In this document: positions 11,010 to 59,364 of the stretch, in pieces | How positions within the stretch are numbered: position 1 is the first letter of the stretch | Layout of the letters: each line of letters opens with the position of its first letter | Origin: Chloroflexota bacterium | GTDB lineage: Bacteria > Chloroflexota > UBA6077 > FW602-bin22 > JACPRP01 | DNA length: 64,000 bases | Direction of reading: 5' to 3' | NCBI GenBank assembly: GCA_016189905.1 | Contig: JACPRP010000125.1 | Coordinates: 1-64,000, forward strand | Made by a program: the position numbers and the translations under genes | Notes under the pieces: generated by a model | What the model was told of the DNA's origin: nothing | Seen by the model: the letters and a program-made list of their open reading frames with translations, nothing else | The model's database searches: none

Positions 11010-11095
11010 GCGCATCAAGCTAAGACGCAATTCAGCAACGAAAGAGCCCGTGCGGCCGACCAAGCCACTCCTCTCCCTCACGCTTGAGGGAGAGG
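11010..11095. repeat. Dispersed repeat with 11-bp hairpin (also at 26.2 kb)
   Basis: About 70 bp (11010-11080) is repeated with scattered changes at 26191-26262. It ends in a perfect hairpin, CCTCTCCCTCA (11070-11080) with TGAGGGAGAGG (11085-11095), loop CGCT. It sits about 55 bp past the ubiD stop codon on the minus strand and may serve as its terminator. The rest of the 10792-11151 gap shows no gene. Confidence 0.75.
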
Positions 11096-14414: not shown

Positions 14415-14520
14415 TATAGCAGTTTGCAAAGGGTTTTGGCTAGCGGAGCAGCCACCGATATACCGAGCGTATGCAATGTAGCGCGGGGGCTTGTCCCCGC
14501 GCTACATTGCAGTGTATTAA
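14415..14520. repeat. Partial MITE-like element with 16-bp perfect palindrome
   Basis: Starting with TATAGCAGTTTGCA (14415-14428), about 80 bp is nearly identical to the 151-bp element at 39713-39863. It ends with a perfect inverted repeat, GCAATGTAGCGCGGGG (14473-14488) and CCCCGCGCTACATTGC (14495-14510). The right terminal repeat of the full element is missing. It lies between convergent genes and may act as a two-way transcription barrier. Before it, 14290-14400 holds another repeat with ACCGCAAAGAGCG-type ends, also seen at 50.6 kb. Confidence 0.85.
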
Positions 14521-15569: not shown

Positions 15570-15659
15570 AAGGCGAAGTTAGCTCACCTCCCATCCTAAT
15601 TTTACCGCGTTTCGATCGCTAACACTATGGTGGTTACCGATAGGTCGAGCGTAGCAAAC

Positions 15660-15725
15660 GTAGCGCGGGGGCTCGTCTCCGCTCACCCCCCGGCCGGGCT
15701 GAGCGGAGACGAGCCCCCGCGCTAC
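15660..15725. repeat. 26-bp perfect inverted repeat (GTAGCGCGGGGG family)
   Basis: The arm 15660-15685, starting GTAGCGCGGGGGCTCG, is repeated as a perfect reverse complement at 15700-15725, with a 14-nt GC-rich loop. The same GTAGCGCGGGGGCTC core forms the palindromes at 14.5 and 39.8 kb. A second repeat-like stretch with GCGTTTTGCG ends follows (about 15779-15877). The 15570-16094 gap shows no clear gene apart from the 5' part of the next reading frame. Confidence 0.88.
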
Positions 15726-26154: not shown

Positions 26155-26262
26155 CGGCACCCTGACAGGGCGACGAGCCCGTCGCCCTATGCGCATCAAG
26201 AATAAGACACAATTCAGCGACGAAAGAAGCCGTGTGGTCAACCAAGCCGCTCCTCTCCCTCA
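26155..26262. repeat. Dispersed repeat between nagB and the GH100-like gene
   Basis: AGGGCGACGAGCCCGTCGCCCT (a palindrome) starts the stretch, and 26191-26262 matches 11010-11080 with scattered changes. It sits inside the operon, so it is transcribed and may form a processing or attenuating hairpin that separates nagB from the last two genes. Confidence 0.75.
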
Positions 26263-26295: not shown

Positions 26296-27174
26296 TCAGC
26301 GCGATGTTAACGTAAGCTGTCGCAGACTAGCCACGGCGGGCTCATCCGCGACGACGGTCAGTCCCGAGTGGCGCTGGAGCGCCGACGCCGGAACGTCGGA
26401 CGTGATATCTCCTTCCAGAGCCCTCGCAAGGATTCGCGCCTTTTTCCCGTCGGACGCGAGCAGCAGGATTCGACGCGCCTCCATTATCGTACCGATGCCC
26501 ATGGTCAAAGCAAAACGGGGAACCGCCGTGGCATCGGCAAAGTAGATGCTGTTATCCGCCAGCGTCCGTTCTGTCAGCTTCACCAGTCGCGTTCTTGCAT
26601 CGAAGGGCGAGCCCGGCTCGTTGAAGGCGATGTGGCCGTTGTGCCCGATGCCCAGGATGGCCAGATCGATGCCGCCGGCCCGACGAATCTTACGCTCGTA
26701 GCCATGGCATTCCTCGTCAGCGTCTGGCGCTGCACGACCAGGGCACCTTTTTTGATTTTGCGCCCCACCAGCCCGCTTCGGAAAGGGGAATTCTTGGGGG
26801 TGTCCCCCAAGCCCCCGCACTGACGGGGCAGACGCCAGGGAATCGAGCAGGTTGATATTCTCGGGATGAAGGTTCACTCGATCGAAGAGCTCCCGGCGCA
26901 TGTAGGCGGCGAAGCTTCCGGGATGCTCCGCGGGAATGCCATAGAACTCGTCAAGATTGAACGTCGTGACGCCGGCGAAATCGACCTCACCTTCCTCGTA
27001 CAGATGCCTCAGTTGGCGGTACATGCCGAGAGGGGTGCGCCCTGTCGGCAGGGCAAGGACCGCTCGTGGATTATCGCGAAGCTCCTTGGCGACGATCAGC
27101 GCCGCCACCTTCCCCAGGTCATCGGCATCGCCGACGACGATCAAGCGAAACCCGTATTTCATGCCGCGATGCAC
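26296..27174 (-). CDS. nagB: Glucosamine-6-phosphate deaminase with an in-frame insertion
   Basis: Converts glucosamine-6-phosphate to fructose-6-phosphate and ammonia. Family blocks: ALPTGRTPLGMYRQL, TTFNLDEFYGI with catalytic Asp, and GIGHNGHIAFNEPGSPF with catalytic His and Glu. Between NINLLDSLA and PDADEECHGYERKI, where normal NagB has only a few residues, this protein carries about 35 extra residues (114-148, including GLGGHPQEFPFPKRAGG) made from repeat-like DNA. Without them it would be about 257 aa, the family size. The insertion keeps the frame and falls in a surface loop before the active-site lid region, so the enzyme may still work. GTG 27174 has AAGG about 10 nt upstream; ATG 27162 is the alternative. 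It begins 2 bp after the nagZ stop. Confidence 0.93.
   Translation of the reverse strand: MHRGMKYGFRLIVVGDADDLGKVAALIVAKELRDNPRAVLALPTGRTPLGMYRQLRHLYEEGEVDFAGVTTFNLDEFYGIPAEHPGSFAAYMRRELFDRVNLHPENINLLDSLASAPSVRGLGGHPQEFPFPKRAGGAQNQKRCPGRAAPDADEECHGYERKIRRAGGIDLAILGIGHNGHIAFNEPGSPFDARTRLVKLTERTLADNSIYFADATAVPRFALTMGIGTIMEARRILLLASDGKKARILARALEGDITSDVPASALQRHSGLTVVADEPAVASLRQLTLTSR
26728..26835. repeat. Palindrome-bearing insertion inside nagB
   Basis: About 105 bp with no counterpart in typical nagB. It contains a perfect hairpin CTTGGGGG-TGT-CCCCCAAG (26793-26811). Length is a multiple of three. Boundaries are estimated from the protein alignment remembered for the family, so they may be off by several bases. 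Confidence 0.7.
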
Positions 27175-27176
27175 GG

Positions 27177-28928
27177 TTAGAAACCTTCTAGTCCATGGCC
27201 AAACGGAAACAGGCCAGGCAAAGAAATCGGTAGCTTCCCACTCGGCTCGTACTCGCCGAACAACAAGTCTACCGCCGCCTCCAGCGCCACCGGCGAGTCG
27301 CCATAAGAAGCCACATAGCAGGTGGCCGAGGGAAACGAAATGAGATCGTAGGGATTTCTCACAGCCAGCACGACCGTGGGCTTGCCAAGCTCCAGGGTCT
27401 TTCGAACTAACGCCGCCTGCTCATAGATGATATGCGCATCCCTGGTCACGACCACCATCACATCACATTCCTCGGCGAATTTTGCAAGCGCCGGTTTGCC
27501 GTCTTGCGGCGCGACGTCAATCGCCAGGTAGCTCACGGCAGAATGACGTTTGCTCAAGAGCTTCACCATCGATCCGTCGTCACACGCGTCGTCCTCGACC
27601 GGGGAGAGACACGCGCGGGTGAACTCGACGAGCCCGAGCCGCTCACCGTTGCGCAGGCATAGAGGCAGCAAACCGCCACCGTTCTTCACCAGCGTTATCG
27701 ACCTTCGCGCCACGTCCCGCGCCAACCTCCGGTGCTCCTCAAGAGACCAACTGGCAAAATCCATACCGTGGGCCTGGATTCCCGTCCTTTCAGGAAGAAC
27801 GGGAATGACGGGTGGGGGGGCTTCAAGGGGCCAACTGGCAGCGTTCGTACCGTTGGGGGCCTCGCTCAAGGCGAAGCTGGTGAGACGGGCTTTTGCGGCG
27901 AGGATCCTCGCGACGGAGGCATCGACGGCATCCACCGGGATTTGCCCCGCCTTTACCGCTCGCAAAAGCCCCTCAAAGACTTCGACGTTTTCATCCAGCC
28001 TGCCCAGCGTCAGGACGATGTCACTTCCCGATTGGATGGCGGCTATCGCCGCCTCGGCCAGCGAGTAGCGCTCGGCTATCGCCCGCATCACTATGGCGTC
28101 GGTGATCACGATGCCAGCGAACCCCATCTCGCGACGGAGAACGCCAGTAATGATCTCAGGGCTGACGGTCGCAGGCAAATGGTCGCTCGCGAGGGCCGGG
28201 AACACCGCGTGCGCGGTCATCACCATATCGACCCCATTCGCAATCGCCTCACGAAAAGGGTGCAAATCGACTTCGTTAAGCAGATCTCGACTGCGAAGAA
28301 TGACTGGCAGCCCGAGATGGGAATCGACATTGGCGCCGCCGTGGCCAGGGAAGTGCTTCGCCGTCGTGACGATGCCGCCGCTGCCCAGAGCCCTGATGAC
28401 GGCAACACCCATCTCCGCGACGAGAGAAGGCGAATCGCCGAACGATCTGATCCCAATGACCGGGTTAGATGGCTCAGAGTTCACGTCGAGGACTGGCGCG
28501 AAGTTCGTGTTGATCCCGACCGTGCGCATATCCCGCGCGGTGGCCAGAGCACAGGCTACCGCGTGTCGAGCGTCGCGGGTCGCGGCGAGCGCCATCGCGC
28601 TGGGCATAACGGTCGCGCTGGCCCTCAGACGATTCACGGTTCCGCCTTCCTGATCCACCGCGACGAACATAGGGAGCCCCGTTTCCGAGACGGAAAGCTG
28701 TTGGAGACCAGCGGTCAAAATGGCAACCTGCCCCGGATTCGCGATATTCCCCTGTGACAGCATCACGCCTCCCAGGTGGCACTGGCCGACCATAGCCGCC
28801 ACTTCTGGCGCCAGGATTGGGCCAGGAAACCCGGCGACCAGCATCTGGCCGATCTTCTGCTCGAGGAATAGCTCGCTCAGCTTATTCCGAATCCGCGCTT
28901 CTCTCAAAGAAGCATCGACATCGATCAT
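27177..28928 (-). CDS. nagZ: GH3 beta-N-acetylglucosaminidase (NagZ type) with an in-frame insertion
   Basis: Family 3 glycosidase that releases terminal beta-GlcNAc, 583 aa. NagZ marks: AVDQEGGTVNRLR, the KHFPGHGGANVDSHLGLP motif that supplies the catalytic His loop, and FAGIVITDAIVM with the nucleophile Asp. A C-terminal second domain (about 395-583) is present, as in longer GH3 proteins. The interdomain linker holds APPPVIPVLPERTGIQAHGM, the translation of a common palindromic repeat, flanked by NAASWPLE and DFASWSLE. No signal peptide, so cytosolic. The start ATG 28928 overlaps the upstream GH gene's stop by one base, and the stop is 2 bp from nagB. Feeds GlcNAc to the ROK kinase and NagA/NagB. 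Confidence 0.92.
   Translation of the reverse strand: MIDVDASLREARIRNKLSELFLEQKIGQMLVAGFPGPILAPEVAAMVGQCHLGGVMLSQGNIANPGQVAILTAGLQQLSVSETGLPMFVAVDQEGGTVNRLRASATVMPSAMALAATRDARHAVACALATARDMRTVGINTNFAPVLDVNSEPSNPVIGIRSFGDSPSLVAEMGVAVIRALGSGGIVTTAKHFPGHGGANVDSHLGLPVILRSRDLLNEVDLHPFREAIANGVDMVMTAHAVFPALASDHLPATVSPEIITGVLRREMGFAGIVITDAIVMRAIAERYSLAEAAIAAIQSGSDIVLTLGRLDENVEVFEGLLRAVKAGQIPVDAVDASVARILAAKARLTSFALSEAPNGTNAASWPLEAPPPVIPVLPERTGIQAHGMDFASWSLEEHRRLARDVARRSITLVKNGGGLLPLCLRNGERLGLVEFTRACLSPVEDDACDDGSMVKLLSKRHSAVSYLAIDVAPQDGKPALAKFAEECDVMVVVTRDAHIIYEQAALVRKTLELGKPTVVLAVRNPYDLISFPSATCYVASYGDSPVALEAAVDLLFGEYEPSGKLPISLPGLFPFGHGLEGF
27737..27853. repeat. Palindromic insertion with flanking duplication inside nagZ
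   Basis: An imperfect palindrome with arms ATTCCCGT (27778-27785) and ACGGGAAT (27799-27806) lies between two copies of a 33-bp sequence (27737-27769 and 27821-27853), which agree at about 25 of 33 positions. The unit length is 84 bp, 28 codons, so the frame is kept. The encoded VIPVLPERTGIQ matches the well-known peptide produced by ATTCCCG-type repeats in many genomes. Confidence 0.78.
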
Positions 28929-30904
28929 CAGTCCGCACCTTCCACGACCACCGCGCCATCCGATCCACTCCGCACTTTGCTCCGGTAATCGGCCCAGAGT
29001 TGAGCTATTTCTCGGGCGTGCGTCTCGGCGATCTCCTCGCCCGATTCGTCGATGTGTGTTACATAGTAGAGGGACGGAACACCTAGCTCAGGCTGCAGAC
29101 GTATGTATTCGAGCCACGATGCCAACGTCGGGCTCGGCCAGTTATCGGTATCGATTAGCCAGGCGGGGGAAGCCGCCCGCGCCACTTTTTGCCGATGGAT
29201 CATGCTTTCCGCGTATCTGTCGTCGGCCGACAGGATGGCGACGTCGTTCAGGCGAAGCATATCGACGACATCCGCAAAATAAGGATTGGCGGTGTGGGCG
29301 ATAATCAGGGCGTCGGGCTTCGTCTGTTTGGCTTCGTCGTAGATTATCCAAAGCAGGCGTCGCAGTAGCTCGACACCCCACAGTCCAGGAGCATCCGCTC
29401 GCATCCTGGCCAAAGGCATGCTGGCGGTGAAATCGATCTTGAAGCCATCGGCGCCGAATTCCCCGACGAGCGTTCTAATGCAGCGCCGCAACCTCTTTTC
29501 ATATCCTGCGCTCGCGGGATCGACGCCGACGGCGGAGCCATAACGATCGACAAGACATTCCTCTGGCGGCACGCCTTCAGGGTCCCAGGCTTTTAGCCAT
29601 AACAGCACACGCCGCCCCGCCGCGCGCTGTCGGGCGATGAAACCCGCCAGGTCGGGCCACTTCTCGAGATCCGGCAAGGGCTCGCCATAGTCTTTCTGCC
29701 ATTTGTCGTCGACGACGACGGTGCCTGGCGTCAGGCCGATATGCTCGAGCCTGGCGACAAAGCGCTCGTAATCATCCTGCGTCGCGTAGCTCTGCGCGTT
29801 TCTCACCGAACCCTCCGCATAGCTCAGGTAGACCTGTTCACCCCAGCCGCAGAAGATGGGCTCGCGCCACCAATCATAAGCAGGCTTGCCGCCGGCAAAG
29901 ACGTAGCCCGCCTCGCGCAAATGGTCACAGTAGCGTCCGATGGCGGAATACTCGTCGTCGGCCCGAAACAAAACGACGTGAGGGCTTTCCCAGGCTCGAT
30001 CGACGCATAGCTTACCCTCGTACCTGAGACTCAGCCCGAAGCCGTTGCCCCCGTTAAACTCGTACTCCGTGAATCCGTTCTCTCCCGGCCGCGCCATCAG
30101 GCCGATGGCCAGCCATTTCCCAGCACGGGTCTGGACAGCGTAGCAAAACGGCGCGGGGGTGAAGAACCAGTTGCCGCGACAGTAGGACTTGTCGCTGCGC
30201 ACGCCGATGGTCGAGGATTCCGTGGGGGAGAAGTGTTGCTTGCGCAGCCCGTTGGGCTCAGGATTGAAGAAGCCAGGGAAGCGCGCCTTAGATCTCACTC
30301 GCCCGTGGAGGCCGCCCTCGTAGCCGGCCTCGATCCACGGCCTGTCAGGACCTACGACAGGCGCGCGGCCGACGAAGCCCTGAAAGAACTCACAATCATC
30401 GACGTGGCCACTGCCCTGAACCAGATAGTAATACTCGATTCTGTCGCTAGTGCAGCGCAGAAAGTACTTCTTGCGCTGCCAGATGCTGCTGGCCGATACG
30501 ATCTCAACCACCGCTGCATCGTTCTCCTGGTGGATAACCGGAGGGCTCGCATCGTAGCTGTAATCGGGCCGGCCATCGGCGTTGCAGGCAGAGAGAAGGA
30601 AGAGGTCGGCGATGGCAGGGCGGAGGTCTGGGGTTACAACACGGAGACATCCTTCCGCGGAAGGACCGGCAGGAGACACGGTGGGACCGAGATCACCGGG
30701 GATACAGAGGAACGACGTGTCAGACGACATCGTAGGGGCAACCGGACGGTCGCCCCTAGCGGATGGGCTCACACCGGCTATGAAAGGCTCCGGTAGATCA
30801 CACGCCACCAGAGTAGCCATCAGGCCGTCAGCTTTGTCGAGCAAGATATGAAAGCTGTCGGTGCGAAGAACAGTGACTTTTTCGCCACGCTCGAGCTGAA
30901 GCAT
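28928..30904 (-). CDS. GH36-like TIM-barrel glycosidase with an N-terminal in-frame insertion
   Basis: Predicted alpha-galactosidase-like (clan GH-D type) enzyme, 658 aa. It has an N-terminal beta-sandwich part (to about 350) and a barrel with VVVDDKWQKDYG, RRVLLWLKAWDPEG and GADGFKIDFTASMP, whose Asp in KID is the likely nucleophile, then IAHTANPYF and DDRYAESMIHR. Residues about 45-92 (GDRPVAPTMSSDTSFLCIPG and on) interrupt the sandwich domain and are encoded by repeat DNA with two palindromes. No signal peptide; cytosolic. It overlaps nagZ by one base and follows the ROK gene by 21 bp. Whether it cuts alpha-galactosides, alpha-GalNAc or another alpha-linked sugar is open. Confidence 0.83.
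   Translation of the reverse strand: MLQLERGEKVTVLRTDSFHILLDKADGLMATLVACDLPEPFIAGVSPSARGDRPVAPTMSSDTSFLCIPGDLGPTVSPAGPSAEGCLRVVTPDLRPAIADLFLLSACNADGRPDYSYDASPPVIHQENDAAVVEIVSASSIWQRKKYFLRCTSDRIEYYYLVQGSGHVDDCEFFQGFVGRAPVVGPDRPWIEAGYEGGLHGRVRSKARFPGFFNPEPNGLRKQHFSPTESSTIGVRSDKSYCRGNWFFTPAPFCYAVQTRAGKWLAIGLMARPGENGFTEYEFNGGNGFGLSLRYEGKLCVDRAWESPHVVLFRADDEYSAIGRYCDHLREAGYVFAGGKPAYDWWREPIFCGWGEQVYLSYAEGSVRNAQSYATQDDYERFVARLEHIGLTPGTVVVDDKWQKDYGEPLPDLEKWPDLAGFIARQRAAGRRVLLWLKAWDPEGVPPEECLVDRYGSAVGVDPASAGYEKRLRRCIRTLVGEFGADGFKIDFTASMPLARMRADAPGLWGVELLRRLLWIIYDEAKQTKPDALIIAHTANPYFADVVDMLRLNDVAILSADDRYAESMIHRQKVARAASPAWLIDTDNWPSPTLASWLEYIRLQPELGVPSLYYVTHIDESGEEIAETHAREIAQLWADYRSKVRSGSDGAVVVEGAD
30629..30772. 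repeat. Double palindrome insertion inside the GH36-like gene
   Basis: This stretch holds CCTTCCGCGGAAGG (about 30650-30663) and AGGGGCAACC-GGA-CGGTCGCCCCT (about 30731-30755). The surrounding CAACACGGAGACATC...GCGGAAGGAC also occurs at 56.69 kb outside any gene, and the AGGGGC...GCCCCT palindrome has a relative at 34.91 kb. The insertion length keeps the frame open. Confidence 0.75.
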
Positions 30905-39712: not shown

Positions 39713-39863
39713 TATAGCAGTTTGCAAAGGATTTTGGCTGGCGGAGCAGCCACCGATATACCGAGCGTATGCAATGTAGCGCGGGGGCTCGTCCCCCGCC
39801 CCGCCCAGCGGGGGGAGGAGCCCCCGCGCTACGGGTAGCCATATCAAAATGCAAACTGCTATA
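39713..39863. mobile_element. 151-bp MITE-like element with 14-bp terminal inverted repeats
   Basis: The ends TATAGCAGTTTGCA (39713-39726) and TGCAAACTGCTATA (39850-39863) are perfect inverted repeats. Inside, GTAGCGCGGGGGCTC (39776-39790) pairs with GAGCCCCCGCGCTAC (39818-39832). Its left half is nearly identical to 14415-14494. It has no coding capacity, so if mobile it depends on a transposase from elsewhere. The TA at each end may be part of a target duplication. Confidence 0.82.
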
Positions 39864-58686: not shown

Positions 58687-59364
58687 CTATTTCTTCTTCG
58701 CCTCTTTTGTTTCCCTTGTAGTCTCCCTCATCTTGGCGAGCTCGGTTAGAGCGGCCGTCTTCATAGTCCTTTCGCGCCGTCCGACGATCTCCAGATTGTT
58801 GTTGACGTCCCAGACGCCCGGCACCCACCAGACGTCATCGCCGATCGCGTGTTTGACCCTCTTGCTTGGCACCGTGCCGCTCAGCGTGACCACACCGCCC
58901 GTGACATCTATGCTGACGTCGGAATCGAACGGGACGATGGGATCGGCGTCGATGGCATCGAAGATGGCCTCGCGAATCTGCTCGTCACTCGGCCAGTTTT
59001 CGGCGAACGTCCATCCGCCGCCGGGGTACATCCCCTGGCCGGGGTACATTCCCTGACCGGGATACATTCCCTGACCGGGATACATCCCCTGGCCCGGGTA
59101 CATCCCCTGACCAGGGTATAACGCCTGGCCAGGGTACATTCCTGGGAAAGTGCCGCCCCAGGTCATGGGACCGCCGTAGAAGGGATTGAAGCCGGGCGTA
59201 AAGCCGTAGGGGAAGCCCCCACCGTACGGGTAGCCATAGGGGAAACCCATTCCCATTCCGCCACCCATACCTGCCGCGGCACCCATCGCACCAGGTGCAC
59301 ACCCGCAGGTTGGGCAGGCCATCGAGCCGCCGGACATCGGGTTATTCCCGAAACCGTTTGGCAT
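58687..59364 (-). CDS. CPxC BON-domain protein with MYPGQG repeats
   Basis: 225 aa. The N-terminus has MACPTCGCAPG, then Gly/Pro/Tyr-rich sequence and six to seven copies of the hexapeptide (M/L)YPGQ(G/A) encoded by an 18-bp tandem repeat. A BON domain (about 125-200) follows, DEQIREAIFDAIDADPIVPF then SIDVTGGVVTLSGTVPSKRV, very like that of the gene at 56952. The C-terminus is charged (ETTRETKEAKKK). YPGQ-like repeats resemble low-complexity regions that drive self-assembly, an inference only. First gene of the BON run. Confidence 0.9.
   Translation of the reverse strand: MPNGFGNNPMSGGSMACPTCGCAPGAMGAAAGMGGGMGMGFPYGYPYGGGFPYGFTPGFNPFYGGPMTWGGTFPGMYPGQALYPGQGMYPGQGMYPGQGMYPGQGMYPGQGMYPGGGWTFAENWPSDEQIREAIFDAIDADPIVPFDSDVSIDVTGGVVTLSGTVPSKRVKHAIGDDVWWVPGVWDVNNNLEIVGRRERTMKTAALTELAKMRETTRETKEAKKK
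59027..59152. repeat. 18-bp tandem repeat inside the BON gene
   Basis: Seven units of about TACATYCCCTGRCCGGGG begin at 59027, 59045, 59063, 59081, 59099, 59117 and 59135. The period of 18 keeps the frame, so copy number changes would only alter protein length. Confidence 0.93.

Follow-up and report, generated by a model that had tools for sequence, protein, structure and literature searches.

A nagZ-like gene in the 64,000-nucleotide stretch of Chloroflexota DNA analysed here (the window) carries an in-frame addition of about 28 codons, in which a dispersed REP-like hairpin lies between two diverged copies of nagZ sequence. With moderate confidence, we favor an explanation in which a REP hairpin inserted in the linker of nagZ, the insertion or a later slippage duplicated adjacent nagZ sequence, and the enzyme tolerates the addition. 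In-frame insertion of a CGTC-type REP is of a known kind; only the flanking duplication is unusual. The features within the gene are as follows.

27177 to 28928, minus strand: nagZ-like gene for a GH3 beta-N-acetylhexosaminidase of 583 aa, with an uninterrupted reading frame and the catalytic-motif residues retained
27823 to 27856, minus strand: upstream repeat copy in nagZ (copy A), TCAAGGGGCCAACTGGCAGCGTTCGTACCGTTGG, coding for NGTNAASWPLE
27775 to 27810, minus strand: CGTC-tagged REP-like element, with the CGTC tag at 27810-27807, the stem-loop at 27806-27778 and the CCA tail at 27777-27775
27778 to 27806, no strand assigned: palindrome ATTCCCGTCCTT-TCAGG-AAGAACGGGAAT
27739 to 27772, minus strand: downstream repeat copy in nagZ (copy B), TCAAGAGACCAACTGGCAAAATCCATACCGTGGG, coding for HGMDFASWSLE
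27739 to 27822, minus strand: 84-bp (28-codon) extra unit in one possible delimitation, consisting of the second repeat copy and a 50-bp core

The insert lies in the inter-domain linker of NagZ

The encoded protein has the N and C domains of a GH3 NagZ (PF00933, residues 22-344, 2e-88; PF01915, residues 411-571, 4.5e-12) together with the catalytic-loop residues, and its relatives in the PDB are NagZ/YbbD. Because D202, H204 and D277 are among the residues that are invariant in an alignment of 24 relatives, the enzyme is probably active. Relative to orthologs and to GH3 chains in the PDB, the protein has ~28-30 extra residues exactly where a short linker joins the two GH3 domains of its two-domain relatives. 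The 84-bp (28-codon) unit proposed in a preliminary description of the sequence corresponds to this in-frame addition, with ~28 residues absent from the orthologs. These orthologs are not close: the source genus is represented by one genome in the set examined and the class by 29, nagZ is absent from the only other family member, the nearest nagZ orthologs are at most 46% identical, and a scan of named genomes gave distant relatives only.

An AlphaFold model based on a 24-sequence alignment had a mean pLDDT of 87.6, with high values in both domains. Among segments of at least 3 residues, pLDDT fell below 50 only at residues 1-3 and at residues 352-390, which form the linker that holds the insert. 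This linker is predicted to be disordered, and because the extra residues fall within it, between the GH3 domains, the insert is probably tolerated.

The hairpin belongs to a dispersed, mainly intergenic repeat

The two arms of the palindrome (27778-27789 and 27795-27806) are complementary at 11 of 12 positions. The palindrome is of a dispersed, mobile type: pattern, DNA and covariance-model searches show that the genome contains about ten near-full copies, along with many shorter relatives that share the CCCGTCCTTC core. The consensus of the dispersed repeat is CGTC-ATTCCCGTCCTTC..GAAGGACGGGAAT-CCA, and the nagZ element is 93% identical to its nearest genomic relative over 39-40 bases. None of the 20 other sites inspected lies inside a convincing gene. 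They are found between plausible genes, and the few ORFs that overlap them are short (101-214 aa, judged by ORF alone) or, on contig C20, start within the element. The nagZ copy is a clear intragenic case of an otherwise intergenic repeat.

Rfam gave no match for the nagZ element, and the exact pattern of the long palindrome, which is overly strict, had no match across the 29 genomes of the class. A literature search with GGGAATGACG returned matches that, by their titles, are unrelated to repeats. Intergenic copies L124, L125, L127 and L129 have GTATGCGTTCTA / TAGAACGCATAC inverted repeats on either side, resembling a larger MITE-type carrier. We rejected the idea that the nagZ element sits in such a GTATGCGTTCTA-bracketed composite, since the arrangement is not found at nagZ.

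Relation to known repeat families

CGTC-tagged REPs, which include Neisseria dRS3 and Rickettsia RPE-4/RPE-6, have a CGTC tag, a stem whose first two positions are AT, and a CCA tail; the phyla given for them are Proteobacteria, Chlorobi, Bacteroidetes, Spirochaetes and Thermotogae (Di Nocera et al. 2013, PMC3733652). The nagZ element, at ~40 bp, has the same parts. GACG occupies 27807-27810 on the plus strand (CGTC on the minus strand), unpaired at the end of the stem-loop; in 6 aligned copies of the element the stem-adjacent GAC is invariant, and the fourth base is G in 4. The stem begins with complementary A-T at its first two positions (ATTCCCG / CGGGAAT). CCA follows the stem in nagZ and in the copies on contigs C12, C20 and C108, with GACCATA in its place in those on C80 and C93. 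Like the CGTC-tagged REPs, the element is dispersed and mostly intergenic with some copies within genes, and no dedicated transposase has been found for either. It differs in its flanking duplication of the target gene (the string 'duplicat' does not occur in the main text of PMC3733652) and in its stem, which is 12-13 bp across the nagZ-type element (12 bp with a loop of 5 in nagZ itself), whereas stems in the four published CGTC families are 8-9 bp (PMC3733652), with loops of 4-5. Because of this difference in stem length, we file the element as a CGTC-type REP outside families 1-4.

Three other systems invite comparison. Rickettsia RPEs are palindromic repeats that lie in frame within genes for conserved proteins and are translated with them, but they are Rickettsia-specific and 105-146 bp long (original description), and their target duplication is listed as unknown. 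The likeness of the nagZ insert to RPEs would be one of how the insert works only. YPAL/RU-2 of Yersinia, likened here to the nagZ element by description, are also palindromic repeats with sizeable target duplications and are sometimes co-translated; they differ in length (~168 bp) and in having duplications of 3-26 bp (PMC2229807). GTAG REPs and REPINs, which are moved by RAYT transposases, are likewise short tagged stem-loops, from which the nagZ element differs by its CGTC tag. RAYT-driven movement of the nagZ REP was considered and rejected, as the genome, which is 86% complete, yielded no Y1 (PF01797) transposase. GTAG-type palindromes (GTAGCGCGGGGGCT...) do occur in the window, at 14415-14511, 15636-15725 and 39713-39832, of which two have an 84-bp stretch in common (96%); GTAG and CGTC types coexist though Y1 transposase was not found.

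The flanking repeat is nagZ sequence

Copies A and B are identical at 26 of 34 positions (24% divergence) and are spaced by 84 bp (28 codons). The preliminary description had placed the palindrome between two diverged copies of a 33-bp piece of nagZ, with xASWxLE repeated in the protein. We found the same arrangement and the same protein repeat, NGTNAASWPLE and HGMDFASWSLE in one reading frame; the DNA repeat is 34 bp, one base longer and with slightly different edges. The residues differ at 5 of 11 positions, and these changes look unconstrained, which fits a neutral linker. In a gapped alignment, the similarity extends over ~40-48 bp and starts at AGGCC, which overlaps the REP tail, placing the start of the second copy's homology in the AGG of the tail. 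Between the palindrome and one of the copies lie 12-16 bases that are not part of the repeat.

A linker is free to drift, and the repeat might be a coincidence or a protein-level convergence in a low-complexity sequence. In keeping with this, a few real window positions match the A/B score (3-4 among 8,847, at other repeat-like stretches). However, the score of 18 at the insert compares with at most 12 elsewhere in nagZ, and dinucleotide shuffles equaled the repeat's score in 0 of 20,000 trials with 60-bp or 100-bp flanks and in 1 of 20,000 with 150-bp flanks (gapped). With the copies also in the same frame and directly beside the hairpin, we regard coincidence as highly improbable.

A DNA search of the genome found no other match to copies A and B longer than 14-15 bases; the copies are nagZ's own sequence. 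We rejected the possibility that they are part of the mobile element, given that they have no other genomic copies.

Other full-length copies of the element lack the duplication

At ten full-length copies of the element, flank-repeat scores were 7-12 versus 18 in nagZ, with a null 95th percentile of 12; none of the other full-length copies has a flanking duplication above background. Scores of 18-20 at three shorter relatives (L131, L133 and L134) are due to a composite repeat that has TCCCGCTTCACGGGAC-type units of its own. On contig C32 (L063, C32:6871-7002), a copy of the repeat type that is also present in nagB (below) is interrupted by a 41-bp hairpin-bearing stretch, providing a within-genome filled/empty pair, and no duplicated bases are evident at the filled site. 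Because this hairpin has the CGTCCTTC/GAAGGACG core in common with the nagZ element and lacks its ATTCC arms, it is a relative of the element and not the same element. Since neither the other full-length copies nor the C32 site show a duplication, the element does not usually duplicate its target.

These results bear directly on classical transposition with a target-site duplication of ~34 bp. Direct repeats on both sides of a mobile-type element are what such an event would leave, and the 3-26 bp duplications reported for YPAL elements (PMC2229807) offer a precedent. The repeats of a target-site duplication would, however, directly adjoin the element and be seen again where it inserted independently, and this pattern was not seen: the 12-16 extra bases intervene on one side, the duplication is missing from the other full-length copies and from the C32 site, and 34 bp exceeds the YPAL range. 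We therefore consider transposition of this kind quite improbable. The arrangement had been called the expected footprint of either a target-duplicating insertion or slippage around the palindrome; the first part is not supported, and slippage, or template switching, is the better version.

The most fitting reading of the flanking duplication is an isolated local event, by template switch or slippage at the hairpin, which is more likely than a transposition signature. A CGTC-tagged REP-type hairpin of ~40 bp, which in this genome normally lies between genes, would have entered the unstructured inter-domain linker in frame, and the insertion event, or later slippage at the hairpin, would have copied ~34-40 bp of adjacent nagZ. 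The result would be the 84-bp, 28-codon addition, tolerated by NagZ. The start of the homology at the AGG of the REP tail is compatible with a polymerase jumping back at a microhomology junction.

Short tandem duplications are frequent in linkers, and the duplication may predate the REP: the linker would first have gained a short tandem duplication, and the REP would have inserted afterwards between the two copies. The 24% divergence of copies A and B is greater than the difference between the element and its nearest genomic relative, which argues against a single event, although the numbers are too small to decide. In addition, as other REP copies lack the flanking duplication, the two events need not be linked. 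Nevertheless, the homology of the second copy starts in the REP tail itself, and it is less parsimonious to suppose that one short linker underwent two independent events; we judge this order of events possible but rather unlikely. An in-frame, inter-domain REP with a flanking duplication could offer a way to test how CGTC REPs, which lack a transposase, insert into DNA.

Neighboring genes and other repeats in the window

Both genes next to nagZ contain repeats of other types.

26731 to 26830, minus strand: in-frame insert in nagB, the second such insert, made up of a different dispersed repeat of ~105 bp (~35 codons)
30637 to 30681, minus strand: GGTCCTTCCGCGGAAGGA-type repeat in the next gene
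30723 to 30758, minus strand: GTAGGGGC-type palindromic repeat near the start of the same gene, with >15 genomic copies

The nagB gene occupies 26296-27174. PDB deaminases lack ~35 residues at the insert site, and the DNA of the insert matches contigs C32, C60, C49 and C86. On the other side of nagZ, an ortholog of the glycosidase-like gene at 28928-30904 (putative start) aligns with gaps at both repeats, which lie near the start of the gene (30637-30758), and this gene probably holds two more in-frame repeat inserts. In-frame repeat inserts would then be present in two, and probably three, genes in a row, a situation reminiscent of Rickettsia RPEs, which would let one ask why the operon tolerates them. 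One can speculate that CGTC REPs, for which no transposase is known, multiply when replication switches template at the hairpin, sometimes copying neighboring host sequence, and that the operon of nagB, nagZ and the glycosidase gene beside them is a hot spot in which repeats of several families are tolerated and have come to be translated as linkers, but we hold this broader proposal to be doubtful.

The remaining palindromic repeats in the window are intergenic or lie in one doubtful 136-aa ORF. The window also contains a tandem array of an 18-bp repeat (CCGGGGTACATCCCCTGG) at 59003-59146 and a 60-bp dispersed repeat at 11021-11080 and 26203-26262, the two copies of which are 87% identical and both outside the ORFs picked as genes.
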